In this document: positions 1 to 11,460 of the stretch, piece after piece
Layout of the letters: each line of letters opens with the position of its first letter
Position numbering within the stretch: position 1 is the stretch's first letter
Origin: Tannerellaceae bacterium
Lineage (GTDB): Bacteria; Bacteroidota; Bacteroidia; Bacteroidales; Tannerellaceae
Length of the DNA stretch: 11,460 nucleotides
NCBI GenBank assembly: GCA_031273385.1
Contig: JAISRY010000024.1
Coordinates: 1 to 11,460, forward strand
Reading direction: 5' to 3'
Made by a program: the position numbers and the translations under genes
Notes under the pieces: model-generated
What the model was told of the DNA's origin: nothing
The model's database searches: none
Seen by the model: the letters and a program-made list of their open reading frames with translations, nothing else

Positions 1-119
1 TGATAAACCTGGTTTATTGGGTACTTATAATGACGAGAATTTACAATCGGCTAAAAATCAATCAATTCTCGTCATTCCCCCTTTTTGATAAACGCAGTTT
101 ATTGGGTACTCGCAATGAC
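1..119. repeat. Duplicated intergenic block with hairpins and an inverted repeat
   Basis: Two near-identical 34-bp blocks lie at 1-34 and 86-119. Both begin TGATAAAC, continue GTTTATTGGGTACT and end AATGAC. Each starts with a small hairpin, ATAAAC-(3 nt)-GTTTAT. Between them is a perfect 13-bp inverted repeat: AATGACGAGAATT at 29-41 pairs with AATTCTCGTCATT at 64-76 around a 22-nt loop. A weaker echo, ATAAACGCAG, recurs at 158-167, and an inverted, gapped echo of GTAC...AATGAC lies at about 308-330. No reading frame fits the block. It resembles a dispersed intergenic repeat or the remnant of a small non-autonomous element. The sequence shows the repeats; the nature of the element is inferred. 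Confidence 0.7.
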
Positions 120-180
120 CCTATTTGATTTTCATACGATTGCGATTCGTCGTCATCATAAACGCAGCGTCGGCAATCCA

Positions 181-258
181 GAGTATGCACCCTCTTTCCA
201 AAGAGTATGCATACTCTTTCGGAAAAGGATGCATACTCTTTCGGGAAAGGATGCGCCC
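181..258. repeat. Degenerate 22-24 bp tandem repeat with a 20-bp palindrome
   Basis: Units start at about 181, 203, 227 and 249. Each contains ATGCA or ATGCG, and the first three continue into CTCTTTC followed by an A-rich end. The unit lengths are 22, 24 and 22 bp, with a partial fourth. The junction of the first two units creates a perfect 20-bp palindrome, AAAGAGTATGCATACTCTTT, at 200-219. The function is unknown. It could be a protein-binding site, a cruciform or a recombination remnant. No frame across it looks like a gene. Confidence 0.7.
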
Positions 259-283
259 AGTCATGTTCGGAAGAAGTATCAAC

Positions 284-300
284 GGCTCTCGGAGAGAGCC
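284..300. other. Short perfect hairpin
   Basis: GGCTCTC (284-290) and GAGAGCC (294-300) form a perfect 7-bp stem with a GGA loop. On the plus strand it is followed by ATTTATCG rather than a T-run, so it is not a convincing intrinsic terminator. No gene precedes it on either strand within the window. Its role is unknown. Confidence 0.5.
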
Positions 301-377
301 ATTTATCGCATTCGTCATTGGCGTACTATAACAATACATTTTAATGCGTTGACCCTGGAATGGAAACATGCTCCGGA

Positions 378-443
378 TTTTTATGTTCCTTTTATGTTCC
401 TTTTTTGTTCCTTTATGTTCCTTTTTTGTTCCTTTTTTGTTCC
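378..443. repeat. Six tandem ~11-bp T-rich repeats (T(n)-A/T-TGTTCC)
   Basis: Six head-to-tail units each end in TGTTCC after a T-run: 378-389, 390-400, 401-411, 412-421, 422-432 and 433-443. Two variants occur, TTTTATGTTCC-like and TTTTTTGTTCC-like, in the order A A B A B B. The mean period is close to one DNA helical turn, so the T-runs sit on the same face and the DNA may be intrinsically bent. Length variation between units is typical of slippage-prone arrays. No gene function can be read from it. Confidence 0.8.
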
Positions 444-715
444 TTTGATTTTCTCCTAATCCCCGTTTTCAGCCCAAAAAGGGGCAAAATGATGGGGTAA
501 AAAGGAAAAAGTAGGGGAATAAAAAGGGCTTTCCCACCACTCTTTTTCTCTCTCTTTCTCTCTCTAGAAGAGGGAAGAGAGGAGTATATGGTGGAGTGGT
601 GAAGAGAAAAAGGGGAAATGAAAACTTATAGGAAAAATCGAAAAGGGATAAAAAGTATATAAGAGTTGAAAAAGGCGTTTTTGCCCCTCTCGTCACCACT
701 TTTGTCTGCGGTAGA
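444..715. other. Gene-free AT-rich stretch with a polypyrimidine/polypurine tract
   Basis: No reading frame here has recognisable protein features. The notable element is a CT-rich run at about 540-565 followed by a GA-rich run at about 566-584. The two are roughly inverse complements around CTAGA and could form an imperfect hairpin or other non-B structure. At 702-718 a perfect hairpin, TTGTCT-(5 nt)-AGACAA, abuts and slightly overlaps the 22-bp tandem repeat that follows. The rest is low-complexity A/T/G-rich DNA without clear signals. Confidence 0.5.
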
Positions 716-825
716 CAATTGTGTAGCGGGAGCTACCCAGTTGTGTTGTCGGAGCTACCCAGTTGTGTAGCGGGAACAACACAACTGTGTAGCCTGGACG
801 ACACAGTTGTGTAGCTAATGCGTTG
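716..825. repeat. 22-bp tandem repeat array, four full units plus a partial fifth
   Basis: Units of exactly 22 bp lie at 716-737, 738-759, 760-781 and 782-803, with a partial fifth from 804. Each starts CAGTTGTGT or a one-base variant, usually followed by AGC, and ends in a variable 3' arm (GCTACC, ACAACA or ACGACA). The arms are complementary across units. CAGTTGTGTTGT (738-749) pairs perfectly with ACAACACAACTG (776-787), and inside it GCTAC (754-758) pairs with GTAGC (767-771), giving one long hairpin interrupted by a 4+4 internal loop. Unit 1 also has its own GTAGC-GGGA-GCTAC hairpin. The array ends about 10 bp from the ATPase stop codon, so it would be in that gene's 3' untranslated RNA. 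Whether it terminates transcription, protects RNA or is a parasitic repeat cannot be told from sequence; it has no T-run. Confidence 0.85.
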
Positions 826-834
826 CCCCTGGCG

Positions 835-2109
835 TTACTCCTCTTCCTGTAGCAGCCAGTCGATGATCGGTCGTATCTTGATGGTATGTTTCTCATTGCT
901 GACGGTCCTGTTTTCGTTCATGGTGATAAGCGTCAGGTTTTCACACGACAACTCGCCGGCGGCTTTGTATAAGGCCGTTACTTCGCGGTTATAGGTTTTT
1001 GCGGAAGAGATATCTGCCGAAACCTGTATCAGCTCTTTCACCCTGTTCCCGTCACAGATAACGAAGTCAATTTCATACTGTTCCCTATAGTAGAAAATAT
1101 CGCGGAACAGCGGTTTGTTTCTTCTCAACAGCTCCACATAGACCATGTTTTCCAGTTTCCATCCTCTGTTTTGCCCATTCATGGCATCTTCCCTTTCCGA
1201 GATGAACGCCACATCTACGACATAGCCTTTTTCGTTTCTGATGCGCGCTTTACTTTTGAAAGAGAATTTATGGATACCCAGCAGTAAATAGCTCTGTTTC
1301 AAATACGATACATAGTTCTCCGCCGTATGCAAAGAGCCGAAACCAAAACGTCCGGCAAGATCCGAATAGATAATTTCCTGCCCGAAATGGTCGATCAGGT
1401 GGTTGGCCAGCATACGTAATGCCTCTATATACCGGACTTTAAACCGTTGCTGTATGTCTTTTCGTATAATGGAATCAAACAATCCCTGTACATACCCCCG
1501 GCTGTTCTTTACCTCTGACAGTTCCGGGAAACCGCCTTTTTGATAAAACGCTTCAAATGCCGCTTTTTTGAATGCGGCCCCTTTTGTTGACATATCCCTG
1601 GTATCTACTTTCCGGTATTGGCAAAACTCGGCGAAAGAAAAAGGGTACAGCTCTATCTGATTATACCGTCCGGTGAGATGGGAACTGAGTTCACCGCTCA
1701 ACAGCCTGGCATTGGAGCCGGTGATCACAAGGTGTATTTTTTGCCGGAGCAACCTGTTTACAAACAAAAACCATTCTTCTATATTTTGTATTTCGTCCAA
1801 AAACAGGTAATGAAAATCGCCATATACCATGTAAGCCGCTTCCAACAGCGTATCCAGATCCCTCCCCTGCAACTTATACAATCGTTCGTCATCGAAATTG
1901 ATATATGCATAAGGGATATCCTTTTCTTTGAGGACTTTGTGGCATATCGTCGATTTTCCGCTGCGACGCACGCCTATCACAATCTGGGCTAAATGGCTAT
2001 CCAGATCAAACAGGGCTTCTTCTTTCCTTGAACATAACTCTTTCGGATTGATCAGCTTCATTTCCTCTTTCTGATCGGCAACTATTCGTACATATTCGTT
2101 GATATCCAT
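835..2109 (-). CDS. DUF4143-type AAA-like ATP-binding protein
   Basis: This 424-residue cytoplasmic protein has the layout of the widespread Bacteroidetes/archaeal family that joins an AAA-like P-loop ATPase to a C-terminal DUF4143 domain. Visible motifs are Walker A GVRRSGKST (residues 46-54), NFDDER (71-76), Walker B YLFLDEIQNI (101-110, with D105/E106), the sensor-like ITGSNA (129-134), LTGRYNQIELYPFSFAEF (145-162) and GGFPE (192-196). A winged-helix-like stretch and the DUF4143 region follow. In many relatives DUF4143 resembles a PD-(D/E)xK nuclease. Here EIDFVI (346-351) keeps the aspartate, but the expected ExK strand reads LIQVSA (360-365), so nuclease activity looks lost. The start is placed at the ATG at 2109; the upstream in-frame TTG at 2139 lies inside the -7 promoter element. 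The gene is transcribed alone, divergently from the LuxR-type gene. The cellular role of the family is unknown. Confidence 0.9.
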   Translation of the reverse strand: MDINEYVRIVADQKEEMKLINPKELCSRKEEALFDLDSHLAQIVIGVRRSGKSTICHKVLKEKDIPYAYINFDDERLYKLQGRDLDTLLEAAYMVYGDFHYLFLDEIQNIEEWFLFVNRLLRQKIHLVITGSNARLLSGELSSHLTGRYNQIELYPFSFAEFCQYRKVDTRDMSTKGAAFKKAAFEAFYQKGGFPELSEVKNSRGYVQGLFDSIIRKDIQQRFKVRYIEALRMLANHLIDHFGQEIIYSDLAGRFGFGSLHTAENYVSYLKQSYLLLGIHKFSFKSKARIRNEKGYVVDVAFISEREDAMNGQNRGWKLENMVYVELLRRNKPLFRDIFYYREQYEIDFVICDGNRVKELIQVSADISSAKTYNREVTALYKAAGELSCENLTLITMNENRTVSNEKHTIKIRPIIDWLLQEEE

Positions 2110-2136
2110 ACTTATAACCTTGATTTGTCTTTCCGG

Positions 2137-2162
2137 CAAAGGTAATGCTTTAAAATGTCAAA
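2137..2162 (-). promoter_or_regulatory. Bacteroidales-type promoter of the ATPase gene
   Basis: Read on the minus strand, TACCTTTG (2144-2137) matches the Bacteroides -7 consensus TAnnTTTG exactly. TTTG (2162-2159) lies 14 nt upstream as a candidate -33 element, a spacing somewhat shorter than usual. Transcription would start near 2130, upstream of the ATG at 2109, which supports that start over the TTG at 2139. The -33 element overlaps the first of the three phased 11-mers by one base, so a factor bound there could block or recruit RNA polymerase. The match is seen; the activity is inferred. Confidence 0.6.
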
Positions 2163-2236
2163 CTGCACTATTCTGCGGTTTTTGCCGCGCGTAACTGCAC
2201 TATTATAGTTAAAAACGGTTCTCATACTGCACTATT
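2162..2236. promoter_or_regulatory. Three identical 11-mers at exact 32-bp spacing (putative operator)
   Basis: ACTGCACTATT occurs at 2162-2172, 2194-2204 and 2226-2236, all in the same orientation (AATAGTGCAGT on the minus strand). Start-to-start distances are 32 and 32 bp, about three helical turns, while the 21-nt spacers share no aligned sequence. The array fills the divergent region between the ATPase promoter and the LuxR-type gene. Conserved sites with non-conserved spacers and constant phasing suggest cooperative binding on one DNA face. The binding protein is unknown. The ATPase itself, the adjacent LuxR-type protein or an unlinked regulator are candidates. Confidence 0.7.
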
Positions 2237-2268
2237 CCGGATAAATTGACGATTTTTCGGGGAAAAAG

Positions 2269-2322
2269 TTGGAAAAGACAAATATAATCGTTTATTTTGT
2301 TTGTATAAAACCGAAAGAGAGG
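2269..2322 (+). promoter_or_regulatory. Candidate promoter and ribosome binding site of the LuxR-type gene
   Basis: A weak Bacteroidales-like promoter can be read as TTG (2269-2271) and TTATTTTG (2292-2299), the latter one base from TAnnTTTG, with a start expected around 2306. AAAGAGAGG at 2314-2322 is a purine-rich Shine-Dalgarno-like sequence 5 nt before the ATG at 2328. It supports that ATG rather than the in-frame TTG at 2301. Confidence 0.4.
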
Positions 2323-2327
2323 TTCGT

Positions 2328-3065
2328 ATGAATGCCTTACGTTTTTCAAGGTATGTCAAGGTGTTAGTGATTTTACCTGTTTTACTTTTAACCGTCCTGA
2401 CTATGAACGCCATGGCGGAAGCGCCCCCTGTTTGTCCTACAGGTGTCGTGTGGTACAAGACTGTGCAAGCATACATTATTTACGGCCTCCTGCTTTGGTT
2501 TATCATATTGTCGGGAATCCGGCAGCAAATCAGGAAAAAACGGAAGAGAAGACGCTCGACCTTACAGTTCGAATGGCAGCTTAGGGAGAAAAAAATACAT
2601 GAGCTAAGGAACGAAATGCTGGAAAAGGAGTTGCAAAACAAGAAAAACGAGCTGATGCAGCAAGCCGCTTCGATGGCCAGGAAAAACCGGATCATGAAGA
2701 CGTTGCTGGAAGAGCTGGAGCGCCAGAAAGAGACGTTAGGCCACCAATACCCGGACAAACTGTATCTCCGCATGCGCACATTGATGGAAAAGACACTCAA
2801 CACCCACAGCGACCGGACAGCCTTTGAACACTACTTCAACAGCGCACATCAAGACTTCATCAAACGTTTCCGCGAACAATACAAAGACATCACAAGCGGC
2901 GACCTGCGTATTTGCTGCCTGCTCAGGATGAATCTGTCGACGAAAGAGATCGCCTCCATCCTGCATGTCTCCGTCCGTGCCGTGGAGTTGCGCAGATACC
3001 GGCTGAGAAAACGGATCGGCCTGGAAAGCGACACCAATCTTGTCGATTTTCTTATGGGATATTGA
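2328..3065 (+). CDS. Small membrane-anchored LuxR-type HTH regulator
   Basis: The 245-residue protein has a hydrophobic segment at about residues 9-26, a short loop (EAPPVCPTGVVWYKTVQ), a second hydrophobic helix at about 48-65, and then a strongly basic stretch, RKKRKRRR. This predicts a two-helix membrane anchor with both ends in the cytoplasm; alternatively the first segment is a cleaved signal peptide. A charged, heptad-rich coiled coil follows at about 75-140. The C-terminal HTH (about 193-245) carries LRMNLSTKEIASIL and VRAVELRRYRLRKRIGL, the recognition-type helices of Bacteroidales LuxR-fold regulators. Longer relatives carry periplasmic TPR or beta-propeller sensor regions before the membrane helix. 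Here that sensor part is missing, leaving about 20 residues outside. The protein is expected to dimerise through the coiled coil and bind DNA while membrane-tethered. Its targets are unknown: the divergent ATPase and the convergent surface-protein operon are only candidates. It starts at the ATG with a good ribosome-binding sequence. Confidence 0.85.
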   Translation: MNALRFSRYVKVLVILPVLLLTVLTMNAMAEAPPVCPTGVVWYKTVQAYIIYGLLLWFIILSGIRQQIRKKRKRRRSTLQFEWQLREKKIHELRNEMLEKELQNKKNELMQQAASMARKNRIMKTLLEELERQKETLGHQYPDKLYLRMRTLMEKTLNTHSDRTAFEHYFNSAHQDFIKRFREQYKDITSGDLRICCLLRMNLSTKEIASILHVSVRAVELRRYRLRKRIGLESDTNLVDFLMGY

Positions 3066-3291
3066 CGGATGAGAAAGGAATGATGTGGTTACAAGAGGGC
3101 TATGACACCAATTGAGAAAGTATTGTTGTAGTCTTTTTTTTGTTATTCCCGCCTTTTTTTAATCACTTTGTATCATTAAAGTTTCAGTAATAAGGTATGC
3201 TTACAGGCAGAAAGATTGTTTATACATTGTTTTAGGTTTTAGGTTTCCTTTTTACTTTTTTACAACTCCTTATACTTGAACGCCAAAAGTC
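3066..3291. other. Gene-free T-rich stretch between convergent genes
   Basis: No credible gene is seen in these 226 bp. On the plus strand it is T-rich, with T8 at about 3133-3140, T7 at about 3154-3160 and a small direct duplication of TTTTAGG at about 3231-3245. No clear hairpin precedes the T-runs. The strong terminator lies at its far end, so the LuxR-type transcript may carry a long 3' untranslated region, or a small RNA could be made here. Nothing more can be supported. Confidence 0.4.
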
Positions 3292-3328
3292 GAGGCTGCC
3301 CGGATACTCTCCGGACAGCCTCTTTTTT
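3292..3328 (+). terminator. Strong rho-independent terminator between convergent genes
   Basis: A 13-bp stem is formed by 3292-3304 (GAGGCTGCCCGGA) and 3310-3322 (TCCGGACAGCCTC). It has a single mismatch, read as C-A on the plus strand and as a U-G wobble in the minus-strand RNA, and a 5-nt loop. On the plus strand it runs straight into TTTTTTC, the classic intrinsic terminator form for rightward transcripts. On the minus strand it follows the stop of the surface-protein gene (3342) by about 20 nt and is trailed only by GACTTTT, so it may also end that operon, less strongly. Confidence 0.85.
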
Positions 3329-3341
3329 CTTTCGGCGGCTT

Positions 3342-6300
3342 TTACCTCTTGACAATGCGTATCACTTTCGATGTGTTGTCATCAAGGATGACTTTTACGA
3401 AATAGATTCCGCGTGTCAATGTGTGGAGGTCAATCCGGTCGTTTTCAGGACGGATAAGCATTTGTACTTTACCTGTCAGGTCAACGACGATCAGTTCCTT
3501 TACCGCTTGGGCGGAGGTCAGGACGGCATAGCTTTCGACCACTGTCGGAGTCAGGCTGACGGAGGTCTTGCCCAGCTCTTCCAGGGCGGTCAGGCCTGCT
3601 GCTACGTTGAAGCGGATGGCGATCCTGGTCGTCTGGTAGTTTACGCCTCCCGCTTGTGTGGCGTAAATATCCGTGCTCCCTACAGCCTTGCCTGTCAATA
3701 CATACTGGCCGTTGACTTTCTCGACGAGGATGATGCTGTTATCCTTCGATTCGAAGACGATCTCGCCGGGGCTGTCGGACGTGGCGGTCAGGATAAGCTT
3801 TTCTCCATTGACTACGGTTGTCTTTTCGGGTATCCATACAAGATTGGACGGCGCCTTATTCACCGTCAGCGTACCGGGGATCAACTCGACAAGGTAGCTC
3901 TCTTCCGTCGTGCCTAGCGTTTCAATGGTCAGGCTGTAGGCGCCGGCATTTCCGGTATATCCGTTCAGTTTCACGGTATAGATGAAATTGAGGTTTGCCG
4001 GCGTATCGCCTCCTACCAGGCCGTCGAATAGCGGGGGATTGTATTCGGGAAGCGCCTCCCCGTAGGTGATCGTCTTGCTTTGCGCCCTGATGTACAGTGT
4101 CTTTTTGGTGACCGACAGTTTACCGGTATTGTACGTAATGGCATAGTTGCCGATACGTTCCGGGCCGGTGGCATAAATGATGTACGCGCCTGCCTTGGCG
4201 ATCGGGCCGGCGACATATAACGACGGCTGGTTGGAGATGGTAAAGCCGTCGTTGCCGATAAAGCCTTTAACGGTATACCTCAGATCCTCTTTCGTCGGTA
4301 TGTAGCCGTAAACGCTTATCAGGTCGTTGGGCGTCACCGTCACGATCCCGGGATTAATACGCATCATTTCCTGCCGTACCAGTATATTCGTCCCGTTCGC
4401 CTGTGCATAGATGGCCAGGTTGTAATCGCCGGCATCGACAGGTAGGTCGTAGTCGCCATTATAGGTAATGACAGGCGTGTAGGTGCGAAGCCCCAACGGA
4501 TCAGTCAGGGTCACGTCTACCTGTTTCGGCTGGCCGTCGTACGTAAAGGTGGTTGAGCCGATCGTCACATAAAAGTCCGCTTCATTCTTGAGCCGTTCCA
4601 CCGTATAGACGATGGTTTTGCTTACCGGCGCATATCCGCTTTTGGGCGAATAGGTGGCGGTGATCTCCACGCCGTCCGCGCTGGTCAGGCCGAGCGCTTG
4701 TATCCACCATTCGTTGTCGACTTTCTCTACGCGTATCTGCTTGTCGTTCGACGAGGTATAGTGGATGTCGCTCTGCCAGAAGCTGAAGTCGACAAGTTCG
4801 TTGCCTTGCCATACGCCGGCATCCAGTTTCACCTTGTCGCCGACGATCAGCCGTTTGATCGTCGGATCCCATACGATCCGGTAGCTATCCGCCGGAATGA
4901 TCTCGTAATAGGGCGCACCGGTAATCGTGATCTCATAATTCCGGCTTGTCTCGTTGCCGCTACCGACGCCGCCCAACGGGTAGACGCCGACGGGCAGTAT
5001 GGCCGGCAGTTGGCTACGCCCGGAGATGGACAAGCCCTGAATCCGGTTCTGCCCAAGATTCGCCGCATTTTCTTCCAGCTTGAATCCGCTATAGGCGATA
5101 AACTCTTCCTGGATAGCGATCGCATTGAAATCGGGATCGGGCGAGCCGTAAGCCCTGCGGATGGTATCGAGCGCAATCGTCAACGGCGCTTTCGACACAT
5201 TCAGGCTGACGGAGTCGTTATCTTGCGCCTCCAGATTAGGTAAAACCAACCCCAGTTCCAGCTTGTAGTTCCTGTCTTTAGCCTGGAACAGCGGGATAAT
5301 GGGCTTGTATGGATTGGCGGCTATCCAGGGGTCGACAGGATTGAACGGATCGATCGGGTCGTACTGCTGTTGCGACGTCAAGCCGTTTTCGGCCAGTATC
5401 TTGATCGTGAGCGTATCGGCATGTATGCCGGCATGAAGCGAATTATCCCTACCCCTCTTGTCGACATAGATCCAGGGGATGGTATCGATCACTTCGTAGG
5501 GTTTGCCGGTCTGCCGGTATTGGTTGTCAAAAGAGGCCAGCCCGCGTCGTTCATCCGCGTTGTTGGCTTCCAGATGCCAGATGGTATCCTGTGCAAATTC
5601 GCCATATTCGCGGTAGATCGCGACGGATTCGAACGCCAGGGAGCGTTGGCCGATTCTGAAATCGCCCTCTTCCAGCTTGATGTAGTAGTTTTTGGAGGTA
5701 GGCTCGTTGGTCACTTTTGCCAGATACAGGCTGTCGCTCAGTCCGTCCGTCTTCTTCAGGTTCACCTCTGTCCGGATCGTTACCGGATCGTTTTCGTAGT
5801 CGAAGTATCCGATGACGGGCGCCGTTAAGAAGCCGCTTTCCGCTTCATTTTCGGCAGTGAAGAATGTCGTCTTCAGATACTCGGCGTCGGTTTCGTCAAA
5901 ATAGAATGACGGGGAATCGCCAGGGGCGGTCTCTTTTGTCACATAAAAACGGCCGGCAGGGTTCTCTTCCCCGTAGACTTTAAACATCGGATAGAAACCG
6001 GTGACATCGTCCAGCGTTGTCCACACTTTCAGCGTCACCGTATCCTGGAGGATTTCGTAGACGGCCTCGTTCGTAAACGTCAGGTCATAATTGCTCAACT
6101 GATCTCTGAAATAGGTCTCATCTGACAAGCTGTAGGCGTATGTCCCGACATCCGATTTAGGCCCGGGATTCCAATCACGGGCGGTAGGGGTAACCTGCAG
6201 CAGGACTGTCTCATCCTCAAAAAGCGTTGGCAACAGTTCACCGTTTTTCAGCTCTCCATCCGTTATGGAAATACGGGCTACATGAATCTCTTCGATATTA

Positions 6301-7166
6301 TCCCTGTCATACAAACGGAACGTATCCGGCAACGCCAAGGAGAGGGGCGACTGCAGGATGTTCAGATAACCCCTGTTCAGCCCCGAAGCGGTGACTGATG
6401 TAGCATTAGAGACAAACGTAATCGTGTAATTGGCAGCCGATCCTGCCTCAGACTGTCGAATCAGGTGTTTACTACCTGCCGCTGCATCCAAAGCTGCGCT
6501 ATTGGCATACCTGACGGTAGGCAGTACGTTCGTCGTCCCGTCAAAAATAGCCTGGGTTTCCCCATTCACGAATCCTGCGAAAAAGAAATCTTCCACTGCC
6601 CATTCCGTACCCGGATTGGGGTCGCCATAGAGACGGAAGGTGTCTTTCGGGGCAATGTACAGCTCAGCCGGCGAGACGGTCAACGCTCTTGCCGTAACGG
6701 TGTTGTCAATGGGAGAGAGGGCATACACATAGTCGTCAGGTGAAACGACCTGGGAGTTGTTATCCTTGATAATCAACACGTCTTTGAACGCATCCAGGTT
6801 GAACGCCACGTTGTTCGGCCCGGCTACGGTAGGCGTTTCAGGGCTAAGCATAAGCAAATCATATACCGTTTTTCCCTCTTGAAATGCAATCTGAGCCGCA
6901 TTATTTAAAGTAAAAAGGGCGGCGTCCTCAGCGTTTCTCCACTGAAAGGTAAAGCTATTCAGGTTGAACGGAGTCCCACCTACGTTTACATCGCCGATCT
7001 GTTGGCCGTAGGTCATCGACGCCGCCGAACTGTAGGCAAAGCTAACATACACGGTGTCGGGGGCGACAGGGTCTTGCGCCCGCAAACATATTCCTGCAAG
7101 GAGCATTAAGGAAAGCAGCAGAAGCTGCTTCCTTAATGATACTATTGATTTTAAATATTTCATCAT
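3342..7166 (-). CDS. MBG-repeat surface protein with T9SS-like C-terminal sorting domain (downstream paralogue)
   Basis: The 1274-residue protein begins with a clear signal peptide: MMKYLKSIVSLRKQ, a leucine-rich core and a likely cleavage after LRAQ near residue 31. The start at the ATG pair at 7166/7163 gives this peptide; in-frame upstream codons would overlap the preceding gene. The body is a chain of beta-rich modules. MBG_2-type repeats (YG-x-P core, GF/GL-x-G-D, NY-x-I-x-Y, G-x-L-x-V) are clear at about 160-270 (RLYGDPNP), 660-760 (RAYGSPDPDF), 940-1020 (SVYGYIPT) and 1022-1105 (ITYGEALP). Diverged copies fill 32-160 and 270-660. An MBG/YDG domain lies at about 860-940 (YDGQPKQV), and Big_2-like Ig folds at about 762-858 and 1107-1190. 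A proline-rich linker lies at about 600-630. The last ~80 residues (KELIVVDLTGKV, GIYFVKVILDDNTSKV, final KR) resemble a T9SS type A sorting domain. The protein is probably exported by Sec, crosses the outer membrane by T9SS and ends up surface-attached. The ligand is unknown. It is the second gene of an operon, 22 bp after its paralogue. Confidence 0.9.
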   Translation of the reverse strand: MMKYLKSIVSLRKQLLLLSLMLLAGICLRAQDPVAPDTVYVSFAYSSAASMTYGQQIGDVNVGGTPFNLNSFTFQWRNAEDAALFTLNNAAQIAFQEGKTVYDLLMLSPETPTVAGPNNVAFNLDAFKDVLIIKDNNSQVVSPDDYVYALSPIDNTVTARALTVSPAELYIAPKDTFRLYGDPNPGTEWAVEDFFFAGFVNGETQAIFDGTTNVLPTVRYANSAALDAAAGSKHLIRQSEAGSAANYTITFVSNATSVTASGLNRGYLNILQSPLSLALPDTFRLYDRDNIEEIHVARISITDGELKNGELLPTLFEDETVLLQVTPTARDWNPGPKSDVGTYAYSLSDETYFRDQLSNYDLTFTNEAVYEILQDTVTLKVWTTLDDVTGFYPMFKVYGEENPAGRFYVTKETAPGDSPSFYFDETDAEYLKTTFFTAENEAESGFLTAPVIGYFDYENDPVTIRTEVNLKKTDGLSDSLYLAKVTNEPTSKNYYIKLEEGDFRIGQRSLAFESVAIYREYGEFAQDTIWHLEANNADERRGLASFDNQYRQTGKPYEVIDTIPWIYVDKRGRDNSLHAGIHADTLTIKILAENGLTSQQQYDPIDPFNPVDPWIAANPYKPIIPLFQAKDRNYKLELGLVLPNLEAQDNDSVSLNVSKAPLTIALDTIRRAYGSPDPDFNAIAIQEEFIAYSGFKLEENAANLGQNRIQGLSISGRSQLPAILPVGVYPLGGVGSGNETSRNYEITITGAPYYEIIPADSYRIVWDPTIKRLIVGDKVKLDAGVWQGNELVDFSFWQSDIHYTSSNDKQIRVEKVDNEWWIQALGLTSADGVEITATYSPKSGYAPVSKTIVYTVERLKNEADFYVTIGSTTFTYDGQPKQVDVTLTDPLGLRTYTPVITYNGDYDLPVDAGDYNLAIYAQANGTNILVRQEMMRINPGIVTVTPNDLISVYGYIPTKEDLRYTVKGFIGNDGFTISNQPSLYVAGPIAKAGAYIIYATGPERIGNYAITYNTGKLSVTKKTLYIRAQSKTITYGEALPEYNPPLFDGLVGGDTPANLNFIYTVKLNGYTGNAGAYSLTIETLGTTEESYLVELIPGTLTVNKAPSNLVWIPEKTTVVNGEKLILTATSDSPGEIVFESKDNSIILVEKVNGQYVLTGKAVGSTDIYATQAGGVNYQTTRIAIRFNVAAGLTALEELGKTSVSLTPTVVESYAVLTSAQAVKELIVVDLTGKVQMLIRPENDRIDLHTLTRGIYFVKVILDDNTSKVIRIVKR

Positions 7167-7188
7167 ATTATTTTTTATAGGGTTGGAC

Positions 7189-10100
7189 TTACTTCTTAAC
7201 GACCTTAACCGTCTTGGATGTACCATCTTCCAGCGTGACGCGAAGCAGGTAATTGCCTCTTGAGAGCGAAGAGAGGTCGATCGTCGAAGCGGGTTTTTCG
7301 ATCACTTTCAGCGTTGCGCCGGCAAACGTCACCACGTCGATGCGTTCGACCGGCGATGCCGCCAATACGGTTATCGTACCGGTAAACAACGTCGGGTATA
7401 CCGCGATCCCGCCGGCTGCAATAGCTTCCACTCCCGTCAGCCCAGCGGCAACCTTTACGACTTTCTCAACCGGCGTAGCGGCGTAATGGTTCGCATCGCC
7501 GCCCTGGCGTGCCGTAATGGTTACCTCGCCTATCGAGACAGGCGTCAGTATCCACTTCCCGTCGATATTGTTGACGTATGCCACGCTGAAATCGGACGAT
7601 GTAAACGTCAGCGGCAGTCCGCTCGAAACCGTTGCCGTAAGCGCTACAGCCCCTCCGGGCAGCGCCACAAGCAGGGACTGATTCCAGGTGATCTGTTGCG
7701 AGGCGGGTTCGATCGTATAGACGCCGTTTTTGTATGTCACCGCATAATTGACGGACTTTTGCAGTTCATCGAACGTGATGGTATACGTGCCGGCGTTGTG
7801 GGCATCGCCCAGGCCTTGTATAAGGATACGCGGGGTGAAGCCGAGGTTGGCCACGGCCTCTCCCTGTACGAGTCCATTGTAGGAACAGGTCAGGGCGGCA
7901 AGCGGTTGGCCATAGACGGTCTTCTTGCTGTCCGCCGTAATCGTCAGGGCTGCCTGCTTGACGGTCAGCGTCCCCGGCTGGTAGTCGACGGAATAGTTGC
8001 GTCCGAAGTCGTGGGAGGAGTAGGGCAGCAGCCTGTATTCGCCGGCGTTTCCTTTGTATCCCTCGATCGTGACTACGGGAGGATTCGCGGCGGGGAAGTC
8101 CAGCCCGGCGAGGAAGTCGTTCCTGTCGTAGCTGTAAGCCGTCTTCACCAGCTCTTCCAGCTGTTTGGCGGTATATTCGCCATACGTTACCGCAACGTTG
8201 TCCGCTCTGACGGTAACGGTACGCGGAAGAATCACCATCTTGTTCTTGGCGTAGTAGGTATACTCGTTATTGGCCACTTTGGCAACGACGCTTACCGCAT
8301 AGACGCCCACTTCGACGGGTGCGTTCCGGCTCTTCGCATACGTGGTCGGCACTTCGGCCCCGGTATCGCCCTCGTAATAGATGGCGTACTCAACCGTACC
8401 TCCTTGCGTATCGACGACTTGTGCATTGACCGCTTTCGGCGTACCGTCGTATACGGACGTAACATTCGAGACGGTGATACTGACATGGGTCGCATCGCCC
8501 TCGGGTTCGACCACCGTTACGGTACCCCAAACCGAGGCAACCGCTTCGTAGGTATCATCCCCGGGTGCGCTGACTTCGATACCCGTCGCGCCGTTCGACA
8601 ACGTGCGGGACTGCCCTTTCACGAAGTACTTATCGCCCTCCTTGTACAGCAGCACGGGTTCGCGTTCGTTGTTATACAGCGTGTAGCGGATATCCTTGAC
8701 GGATGGCTTGGCCTCTACTTCGGAGAGGATATAGGCCGACAGTTCCACCGTTTCGCCGACGGCGATCACCAGGTTGCGTTCGCTTTCCGGCCATACGATC
8801 CACCGTTTGATCTTGTCGATCTGCATCCAGCCCTCTTCGTATGTGATGGTGTAGTTGCGTGCGAACAGGTCGTTTTTATTGATGATCTCTACCGGATAGC
8901 GCCCGCGGGCATCTGCGCCGGCGGTGATTTTCGCTATCGGCAATACCGATCCGGTGGCTTTCCGGAAGACATCTTCCAGCCTGCCCTCTTCGCTGTTCTT
9001 CAGCCCTTTGTACACGATCACCGGCTGAGGATTGGCCGCTCCGTACGGACGGCTGCAATCTTCCGTGATAATGGTGAGGGGGGCGGGAAGAATCACCGCC
9101 TTGCCGGGCAGGATCTGTTCCGCCGGTATGGCAAAGCCGAAGTTGGCCAGTAACGCCTGGATCGCCTCTACGGCATCGAAATGCCAGTAGGATTGCTGGG
9201 TAGTCAGCCTGAGGTCGTATATGCCCACGTCGGACTGCCTGTTGTTCAGGTCGGCGATATCGGCCCACATTTGCCGCCCATCTTCGCCATTGAGGATCGT
9301 CAGGATTTCCGTCCTGTACGGCTCGCCAATACCGGCGATATCAAACGTCACATCCTCGTCTTGCCATAGTTCCCCATATTCGCGGGTGATCTGAAGCGTG
9401 ATGCTCTCGCCATCATTAAATACCAGCTTTTCGATGGTCACTGTGGCCGTTGTCGAAGAGGCTACATACTTGACGCCTACTACGGGTGTGAGCAGATTCA
9501 GCTTATCGGCATCCGTCTGTATGGCATACTCGCCCACCGGCGCGGTGGAGAGGTATACGTCCGGATTCGTTACGCCGGTTGGCGCTGAAACGGTTTTAAA
9601 CAGGCCGGCGTCTACAGGAGTAGGGCTAAGGTCTGTATTCAACAGTATTTTCGAGCCTAAAGTCGGTGCAAACGTCAGGGCGGGATCCAATTCCGTTCCG
9701 TCGATGACCTGAACGCCATACGTTTTTGTATAAGCGGGCTCAGCCGGTGCGATCGCGACCTCAGCCGCAGTAACGGTCAGTGTAGCCAGGCCTACATTCA
9801 GGACAAAGTCGTAGTTCCCGATCACCGTTCCCTGTTCGCCCGTATTATTGACAAGACGAACCGTAAAGACACCCTCGGTGATAGACGCTTTGACCAGGTC
9901 TACCAACAGGTTGTCTAACCTTTCGCTCCTGAATACTTCCGTCCCCGACTGGTCATACAACGCCCAGTTCAGCTTACCCGAAGTGAACAGCTCGTTCCAC
10001 TGGCCTTCAGCGGACAGCGCAAGCGGTAGATCATCGGGCGTTTCCGTTAGGTTAACCTGATACCAGCCATACCATGCGCCGGTATCATACGCCGACGGAT

Positions 10101-11460
10101 CAAGGTGGTACTCTATGTTATCGACATTGATAGACCATATTCCGGCGATATCCGTTTCCGTTAAAGCCGCTTCTATCTTGGTGGGTTTCACCTTTACGGC
10201 ATTCGTTACGTATACGGGATCAACAGCCTGGTCGTCGATGGTGACGTCGTTATGGCCTGTCGGCGCGAACGTAAACGTGTAGTTACCGGCTTCCAGGTCG
10301 GCTATCCGGTACAGGTATGTCCCGACAGAGGGATTCTTTCCGGGATTTACATTCGGCTTGTAGCTCTGCCAAAGGGTGATGGCAAAATCATATTCGCTCT
10401 CTTCTATCTTATCGCTATTCAAGGCGATAATGTCCGCTTTGATGATCTTTTGTATCTGTGCCCGCGTCTTCTTTCCATAGAAGAAAGCCGCTTTTGCCGC
10501 CCCGTTGTCGCTGTCGCCCAGGTAGGTGGGAAGAATGAGTTCAATCTGTTTCTTCACCACGTTGACGCTGTTCTTTACGTTGGTATAAAGGATAGCCGTA
10601 CCACCTACGTTCGCCGGAGAGAAGCCGGTTAGTGTGAAATTCGTCGCTGCCGCTTCATCTATCTGAACCTGATAGTTGTAGCTACCGACATCCAGCGGAT
10701 CGCCGGTCGAGTAGTAATACAGCACGATCCTGAACAGGTCGGGATGCTGTGTGAAGTAACTATACCCGCCCAATACATCGGCGTTGTCTTCCAGGAATTT
10801 GGCAAGGATAGCCGCCTCCATCTCAGCTACGGTTGTTTTGTACGCAAACTCGTAATCATCCGCCAGCGTGAGGAGAAGCGTAGCAGGCGTAACGCTTACG
10901 CGGCTTTGCCCTGTTCCAGTAATCTCGATATTCTCCGTTATAGCCGCCGGGAATGTGACGGTATAGGAATGATTATCGCCTACCGGTACAGGGCTTTCAG
11001 CCAGCGTAAAGATGACTTCAAAACTATTCGCTTTCTCAAAGCCGGCCGCTTCAGCCGCCGTAAAGAACGCGATATTATCCGCATGGCCAAGTATAGCTTG
11101 CGCAATCTTTTCTTTCAGCGCCTCCACCGTATTCTCATCGCTGTAGACTACTGTCACAAGCGGTTTACGGAAGCTCACCTCTTTTTTGTTGATAATCAGC
11201 GATTGCCTGACCACCACCGGATTGTAATAGGATGTGTTGGCGTCTACCGGAACCACCGTCCCTGAAAGGTGCTGAATGTCACCGTCTTCCGCCACATATT
11301 GAGGTACATAGATCTGTAAAAGCGTCGGATCGGTAATCTCTATCCTGTATCCGTACTTCTTATCTACCGTCAATACCTCATCGTCCGGAATAACAATGAC
11401 TTGATCCGAGGGAGAGGTGGTATTTCTGATGATGGATACGTCTATATAGGAGGTGAGGTC
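7189..11460 (-). CDS. MBG-repeat surface protein with T9SS-like sorting domain (upstream paralogue; 5' end outside window)
   Basis: The frame stays open to the window edge, so the start and signal peptide are not visible; 1423 residues are seen. Numbering from the edge, the first ~550 residues are diverged beta-rich repeats with recurrent VGSYNYQV- or VGTYLYRI-like strands, alternating with K/V-rich linkers. Recognisable MBG_2-type cores follow at about 580 (TKTYGVQV), 694 (REYGELWQDED), 805 (RPYGAANPQP), 1093 (VTYGEYTAKQ) and 1181 (TVYGQPLAAL). An MBG/YDG domain (VYDGTPKAV) lies near 1003. Big_2-like Ig domains begin near 884 (IVWPESERNL) and 1257 (ITWNQSLLVAL, with TFTSSD and GEVTITARQGGDANHYAA). 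The tail from about 1341 contains IAVYPTLFTGTI, IDLSSLSRGNYLLRV and a terminal KVVKK, as in T9SS type A sorting domains. It is presumably exported and surface-attached like its neighbour, with which it shares module order from residue ~690 on. It is the first visible gene of the operon. Binding partners and function are not evident. Confidence 0.9.
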   Translation of the reverse strand, partial: DLTSYIDVSIIRNTTSPSDQVIVIPDDEVLTVDKKYGYRIEITDPTLLQIYVPQYVAEDGDIQHLSGTVVPVDANTSYYNPVVVRQSLIINKKEVSFRKPLVTVVYSDENTVEALKEKIAQAILGHADNIAFFTAAEAAGFEKANSFEVIFTLAESPVPVGDNHSYTVTFPAAITENIEITGTGQSRVSVTPATLLLTLADDYEFAYKTTVAEMEAAILAKFLEDNADVLGGYSYFTQHPDLFRIVLYYYSTGDPLDVGSYNYQVQIDEAAATNFTLTGFSPANVGGTAILYTNVKNSVNVVKKQIELILPTYLGDSDNGAAKAAFFYGKKTRAQIQKIIKADIIALNSDKIEESEYDFAITLWQSYKPNVNPGKNPSVGTYLYRIADLEAGNYTFTFAPTGHNDVTIDDQAVDPVYVTNAVKVKPTKIEAALTETDIAGIWSINVDNIEYHLDPSAYDTGAWYGWYQVNLTETPDDLPLALSAEGQWNELFTSGKLNWALYDQSGTEVFRSERLDNLLVDLVKASITEGVFTVRLVNNTGEQGTVIGNYDFVLNVGLATLTVTAAEVAIAPAEPAYTKTYGVQVIDGTELDPALTFAPTLGSKILLNTDLSPTPVDAGLFKTVSAPTGVTNPDVYLSTAPVGEYAIQTDADKLNLLTPVVGVKYVASSTTATVTIEKLVFNDGESITLQITREYGELWQDEDVTFDIAGIGEPYRTEILTILNGEDGRQMWADIADLNNRQSDVGIYDLRLTTQQSYWHFDAVEAIQALLANFGFAIPAEQILPGKAVILPAPLTIITEDCSRPYGAANPQPVIVYKGLKNSEEGRLEDVFRKATGSVLPIAKITAGADARGRYPVEIINKNDLFARNYTITYEEGWMQIDKIKRWIVWPESERNLVIAVGETVELSAYILSEVEAKPSVKDIRYTLYNNEREPVLLYKEGDKYFVKGQSRTLSNGATGIEVSAPGDDTYEAVASVWGTVTVVEPEGDATHVSITVSNVTSVYDGTPKAVNAQVVDTQGGTVEYAIYYEGDTGAEVPTTYAKSRNAPVEVGVYAVSVVAKVANNEYTYYAKNKMVILPRTVTVRADNVAVTYGEYTAKQLEELVKTAYSYDRNDFLAGLDFPAANPPVVTIEGYKGNAGEYRLLPYSSHDFGRNYSVDYQPGTLTVKQAALTITADSKKTVYGQPLAALTCSYNGLVQGEAVANLGFTPRILIQGLGDAHNAGTYTITFDELQKSVNYAVTYKNGVYTIEPASQQITWNQSLLVALPGGAVALTATVSSGLPLTFTSSDFSVAYVNNIDGKWILTPVSIGEVTITARQGGDANHYAATPVEKVVKVAAGLTGVEAIAAGGIAVYPTLFTGTITVLAASPVERIDVVTFAGATLKVIEKPASTIDLSSLSRGNYLLRVTLEDGTSKTVKVVKK

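Follow-up and report, generated by a model that had tools for sequence, protein, structure and literature searches.

Results

Genes and features of the locus

The window, by which we mean the whole 11,460-nucleotide stretch analyzed here, comes from a Tannerellaceae bacterium and carries four large ORFs, which encode an ATPase, a LuxR-like protein and two MBG-domain proteins (Table 1). The ATPase scores above the Pfam gathering thresholds for both AAA_14 (118.7 bits; gathering 27) and DUF4143 (70.5 bits; gathering 28.1), and matches the PADLOC PDC-S01 model PDLC04787 with an E-value of 2.2e-96. PDC-S01 models are also matched by 11 of the 11 members of alignment A1. By model match, the window ATPase is a PDC-S01 defence candidate with a putative role in defence. 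The starts of its homologues align at the ATG at 2109; the listed TTG start at 2139 overlaps a -7-like promoter element.

The MBG-domain proteins (1294 and 1394 aa, MBG_2 domains) are encoded by adjacent ORFs on the minus strand (3342-11373), and their match to a C-terminal sorting tail falls below its cut-off. Other repeats in the window include TTTTATGTTCC tandem repeats downstream of the ATPase (379-446; 11-bp unit, also scored at a 32-bp period), a ATGCATACTCTTTCGGAAAAGG tandem repeat (185-254; 22 bp, 3.2 copies) and imperfect 22-bp repeats (ACAGTTGTGTAGC...) right behind the ATPase stop codon (715-815).

Table 1. Features of the window, and arrays upstream of the ATPase genes of homologous loci
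Feature	Position	Strand	Basis or remark
AAA_14-DUF4143 ATPase, 424 aa from the ATG at 2109	835..2109	-	Pfam; PADLOC PDC-S01
Putative winged-helix segment, residues 229-300	1210..1425	-	by eye from alignment; proposed word reader
-7-like element TACCTTTG of predicted ATPase promoter	2137..2144	-	consensus match only
Array copy closest to ATPase start, AATAGTGCAGT on minus strand	2162..2172	-	at or beside -33 position
Middle copy of array	2194..2204	-	32 bp upstream of proximal copy
Distal copy of array	2226..2236	-	32 bp upstream of middle copy
L036, protein 81% identical			AATAGTGCAGTTAG x3
L046, L054, L057			AAATAGTGCAGTT x3 or x4
L044, same array as L037			AAAATAGCGCAGTTT x3
L038, contig binned as Treponema			CAAAAATAGCGCAGT x3
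L012			TAAAATAACGC x6
L049			ATGTAAAATAGTGCA x6 at 33 bp
L074			TGCAAAATAAGATG x5
L075			TGCAAAATAAGATG x3
L055, L059			TATCGGCAGT-type x3 at 33 bp
L062			GACCGAGATAATATA x3 at 33 bp
L039			TGCATTTTACCGAAAT x3
L056			TTTTATCGGAAT x4
L194, viral contig			TTATGGCGTTTGAA x3; fourth altered copy 33 bp further up

A phased array at the predicted ATPase promoter

The 11-mer ACTGCACTATT occurs three times on the plus strand, with start-to-start distances of 32 and 32 bp (Table 1), exactly as the preliminary description had reported; the ATPase strand shows it as AATAGTGCAGT. The two 21-nt spacers had been called unrelated, and they agree at 1 of 21 positions. The window holds no further exact copy, and allowing up to two mismatches adds a single match (6493), against a shuffle mean of 2.1 matches. 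By our arithmetic, three equally spaced identical 11-mers are expected in far fewer than one in a million stretches of such length. We also checked the host assembly (2.3 Mb in 251 contigs, 70% complete) for scatter of the 11-mer and found none: all three of its copies lie inside this array, and the reversed control pattern gave one match. Homologues suggest a unit of about 10-16 bp, compared with the 11-mer that is identical in the window.

The -7 consensus is TAnnTTTG, and the proximal copy ends at 2162, 17 nt ahead of the -7-like TACCTTTG, so that the predicted -33 position falls on or beside this copy. The earlier statement that the first copy touches the -33 element therefore stands in a looser form, on or beside it, for a putative promoter placed by consensus. 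Across the core loci described below, the array is found with the ATPase gene and at its predicted promoter. In 31 core loci (counted without L008, L011, L038, L060 and L063-L069), the last copy is followed by a TAnnTTT[GA] match whose distance downstream, counted from where that copy starts, is 24-34 nt in 21 loci, 15-16 nt in four and 39-54 nt in six, one of several -7-like matches having been picked by hand in L055, L062, L076 and L077.

Several other explanations of the repeat were rejected. A chance repeat was rejected on the shuffles, control ORFs and homologues presented below. CRISPR arrays have repeats of more than 20 bp and accompanying cas genes; the identical core here is just 11 bp, and the unit is too short for such an array. 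An RNA element was set aside since the window has no Rfam match and the predicted promoter would leave the array outside the transcript, on its upstream side.

The array accompanies the ATPase gene

We assembled a core set of 34 homologues, comprising 25 order-level matches of at least 587 bits (393 genomes searched) and nine from other searches; 33 are from bacterial genomes, nearly all Bacteroidales, and one is from a viral contig. L011 was omitted, its contig ending 76 nt upstream of the gene, as were L010 and L037, which duplicate L045 and L044. For 32 of the 34 (23/25 order-level, 9/9 others), the 300 nt upstream contain a repeat spaced by 32 or 33 bp with an identity of 11/12 or better, whereas 11 of 3400 shuffles reach this score and 4 of 271 control upstream regions carry such a repeat, the controls being ORFs of at least 150 aa, spurious ones included, on 20 contigs that hold core ATPases. 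Among order-level members new since the pattern was noticed (without the window, L044 and L045), 21 of 22 are positive. A second tier (474-527 bits) was positive in five of seven cases; some of its units look palindromic, and L066 carries ATTCGCAGTATATTGCGAAT twice. At class level, 3 of 395 genomes pass an E-value of 1e-135, namely the host and two members of its order.

A recount with up to one mismatch gave two to six direct copies at 32 or 33 bp upstream of core homologues, with mixed 32/33 spacing in L046, L050 and L051. Inverted copies are found in 3 of 34 upstream regions (two mismatches allowed), for short words only. Core homologues with enough upstream sequence retain the array, in imperfect form in L008 (one exact and one imperfect copy), L076 (10/12) and L045, which scores 10/12 yet has an exact 16-mer pair at 64 bp. 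The word differs among many homologues (AAAATAGCGCAGTTT, TTTTATCGGAAT, TGCAAAATAAGATG), while the period and the promoter placement are kept. The search for the same word in relatives, proposed in the preliminary description, accordingly finds just part of the pattern, because many homologues keep the 32/33-bp period with another word: the window's word is shared by L036, L046, L054 and L057, all from outside the 122 other genomes of the family, and none of those 122 has an exact two-copy array of it.

Sister pairs gave mixed results on whether words are protected relative to spacers. In L075/L074, 0 of 45 word columns and 8 of 34 spacer columns have changed, with three versus five copies. By count there is no word protection in the other two of the three pairs, L061/L060 (9/43 in words vs 10/28 in spacers; the changes fall where L060 lacks a copy) and L048/L047 (11/84 vs 17/142; the loose word also matched chance sites). 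Words differ in five of the five genomes that have two core ATPases, which we do not count as evidence because chance pairs mostly differ too. A related 12-mer, AATAGYGCAGTT, was searched in six genomes, where 15 of 17 matches lie within arrays and the reversed control gave one match; G002 has no matches because its word differs.

Gene neighbourhoods of the array loci

The ATPase is the one gene common to the array loci. Among 24 loci with a called ATPase ORF (L128 gave none), neighbours, taken as the longest ATG ORFs and uncurated, are different on inspection by eye, except in sister species and in the L037/L114 duplicate. Scans of five of the upstream neighbours identified OmpA, an aminotransferase, a PDDEXK_2 transposase and a PIF1-like helicase; the fifth, that of L114, gave no match. 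No relative carrying both the ATPase and the window's divergent gene was found. The viral contig L194 (953-2827) has its core ATPase and array beside a Dam methylase gene, a possible phage cargo. Another plasmid, from Treponema saccharophilum, has a distant homologue of the ATPase flanked by HsdR and DNA methyltransferase genes (L197:1-2591). A megablast search of plasmids with window positions 1-3300 gave no match, and a viral scan with the L015 protein found no relative.

Repeats and other periods in the wider family

Less similar members of the family were examined as 128 loci, which are not a random sample and include L007, the seven second-tier loci and the microsatellite-like L084 and L098. 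In 71 of these 128, a 14-mer repeat of at least 12/14 occurs in about 220 nt upstream, compared with 19 of 98 control promoters. Their best periods cluster at 32-33 bp (25.75 weighted counts), 40-44 bp (17.0) and 21-24 bp (13.75). Among the 98 controls, 32/33 bp accounts for 4.0 weighted counts, 1.5 of which are the core array itself; two of the five control promoters with a 32/33-bp repeat (L130, L131) are the array viewed from the divergent gene. Without the core and second tier, 22 of 120 loci have 32 or 33 among their best periods. For 15 of the 22, no more than 5 of 100 shuffles of the locus itself reach the observed score; for the remaining seven the figure is 7 to 17 of 100.

Outside Bacteroidales, there is little evidence of the array pattern. 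A Chlamydiae-binned contig (L040) reaches 14/14 at 33 bp, and one of 12 plasmid-borne distant homologues beats all of its own shuffles, at 40 bp. Within the host genome, one of five paralogues is positive: two copies of AAAGTTTTGCGGAA at a distance of 44 bp surround the expected start of this DUF4143 ATPase (L138; G000:C61), a score reached by 0 of 100 shuffles. Other clades of the family, with L014, L079, L083, L087 and L090 and with L016, L017, L019 and L021, show different whole-turn spacings upstream, their sites being separated by 42 bp (TTTTATGCAATA-like) or by 23 bp (GAAAGATATTTT in L021).

The candidate reader of the word

We infer that the ATPase itself binds the array because it is the sole gene common to the array loci. 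Word distances were compared with distances in five regions of the protein, using a word table aligned by hand for 30 of the 34 loci (L008, L048, L062 and L075 left out). With figures uncorrected across the five regions, residues 229-300 gave a rho of 0.17 (11 of 999 permutations as high; partial 0.17, 18/999) and the AAA part 0.14 (34/999; partial 0.13, 78/999), and no association was found for the other three regions (0.01, 0.09 and 0.01) or the whole protein (0.09, 91/999). Residues 229-300 supply 11 of the 30 best-associated columns and 58 of the 297 tested. The top 25 of the 297 columns include 258, 260, 264 and 267, which look by eye like a recognition helix, but the three that rank highest (20, 345 and 4) fall outside the segment. 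Residue 258 is absent in L009, L039, L047, L052, L053 and L056, whose words lack GCA, and GCA is present in the words of 18 of the 24 other members. Column 258 and the weak covariation of the segment are suggestive only, and point to residues 229-300 as the possible reader. A Pfam scan of residues 218-310 found no wHTH family.

Alignment A1 had no match among PDB chains at E-values up to 0.01. Alignment A2 gave a weak profile match (E 0.0015, query 25-82) to 2fna, which we take to be SSO1545. The PD-(D/E)XK nuclease motif combines acidic residues with an (E/Q)xK lysine. In A2, E346, D348 and Q362 are invariant, as are K371, R375 and E376 nearby, and the C-terminal half of the ATPase resembles a PD-(D/E)XK domain. 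Cleavage by this half is possible but doubtful, because the place of the lysine holds S, T, A or C in aligned members.

Discussion

The array is linked to the ATPase gene, phased at a near-constant period, placed at the predicted promoter and built of a nearly private word. We propose, with a probability of about 0.7, that it is the private operator of the adjacent ATPase gene, which the ATPase would bind cooperatively to repress its own promoter. The preliminary description had offered a dedicated operator or a recognition array for the ATPase; both options are supported, with binding by the ATPase as a prediction, because the array is found with the ATPase gene in different genera and has a nearly private word in the genomes checked. 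The earlier view of selection on the sites, with phasing near three helical turns, is also supported.

In the proposed mechanism, the binder would be the ATPase, probably acting through the winged-helix-like segment after its AAA+ core. Subunits would bind copies on one helix face, three turns apart, and then oligomerise, and a copy at -33 or in the -33/-7 spacer would exclude RNA polymerase. The ATPase would therefore keep its own level low. Release could depend on its ATP state, or on a signal, phage DNA for example, that titrates it.

This anatomy would also suit activation, and the ATPase might bind the array as an activator, an on-DNA store or an assembly platform instead of a repressor. 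DNA-bound AAA+ assemblies are known, and the longer arrays, of up to six copies, reach well upstream of the promoter. We nevertheless consider these roles unlikely, since in 25 of 31 loci the last copy starts between 15 and 34 nt ahead of the -7-like match, where a bound protein would obstruct RNA polymerase.

It is less probable still that a host regulator, such as the divergent LuxR-like protein, binds the array and controls both genes. In the window the array does lie between two divergent genes, and one end of the neighbouring protein resembles an HTH (GerE, 24.2 bits, slightly over the cut-off). However, 19 of 24 other core loci have no divergent ORF, the first ORF upstream being co-directional there, so that neither the LuxR-type protein as a partner nor an operator for a divergent promoter shared with its gene is supported; the array goes with the minus-strand ATPase, not with the divergent pair. 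Arrays are also found on a Treponema-binned contig (L038) and a viral contig (L194), and the word is nearly confined to arrays in the genomes checked, unlike a host regulon. A cis site for gene mobility or maintenance (end recognition, iteron or centromere) is very improbable, given arrays placed upstream at the promoter and no clean empty site in the two genera examined (G489 flanks apart in the genomes listed; G386 with a one-sided junction), even though gene and array occur in changing contexts, a one-sided junction lies 5 nt past the ATPase stop (G452 vs G386), and distant homologues sit on plasmids near recombinase genes or in a restriction-modification locus.

The operator reading would place this ATPase, by analogy, between autoregulated controllers and ATPases that read direct repeats. 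C proteins, BrxR, CapW and RptR are autoregulated controllers of defence loci, with operators that keep a defence gene quiet, as repression is proposed to do here. They are dedicated small regulators, whereas array loci share no second gene, and the ATPase itself would therefore be the regulator. MalT boxes are short direct repeats, and IniR is described as a signal-transduction ATPase acting on a promoter. MalT and IniR are likewise ATPases that act on promoters, but they control other operons, and the word here occurs almost only at the ATPase's own promoter. Orc1/Cdc6 proteins use a winged helix that follows AAA+ to recognise origin repeats. SSO1545 has been grouped with Cdc6/Orc1 (PMC4599002). 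The weak match of A2 to 2fna indicates a likeness limited to the P-loop stretch, and the window ATPase differs in its nuclease-like C-terminal part and in having its sites at its own promoter.

According to excerpts of one paper, PDC-S01 is the fourth most common defence across prokaryotes, with 29,494 systems in Bacteria and 9,986 in Archaea, and comprises an ATPase with a PD-(D/E)XK-like domain; validation is pending for most PDCs (PMC12988326). The window ATPase and the A1 members belong here by their model matches. The same excerpts mention no cis elements for PDC-S01 (PMC12988326), and the core loci have varied neighbours, several of them household-type by eye. Among the matches listed in open-licence PMC literature, mostly titles and abstract openings, we found nothing on such repeats and no mechanism for PDC-S01.

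A broader and more tentative idea, which we rate as possible but well short of an even chance, is that PDC-S01 ATPases form a large family of self-addressed DNA-reading switches. Each would co-evolve with its own word, reading head-to-tail sites on one helix face at a subfamily-specific whole-turn spacing (about two, three or four turns). The array would switch the gene off and also act as a sensor, with release on competition for the ATPase by invading DNA or a phage product. Many copies could in this way reside in one genome without cross-talk.

For this type of ATPase, the arrays predict a DNA target directly from the genome sequence, and binding, oligomeric state, specificity code and control therefore become directly testable. 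Since words and proteins both vary across natural homologues, they provide a ready-made specificity experiment.
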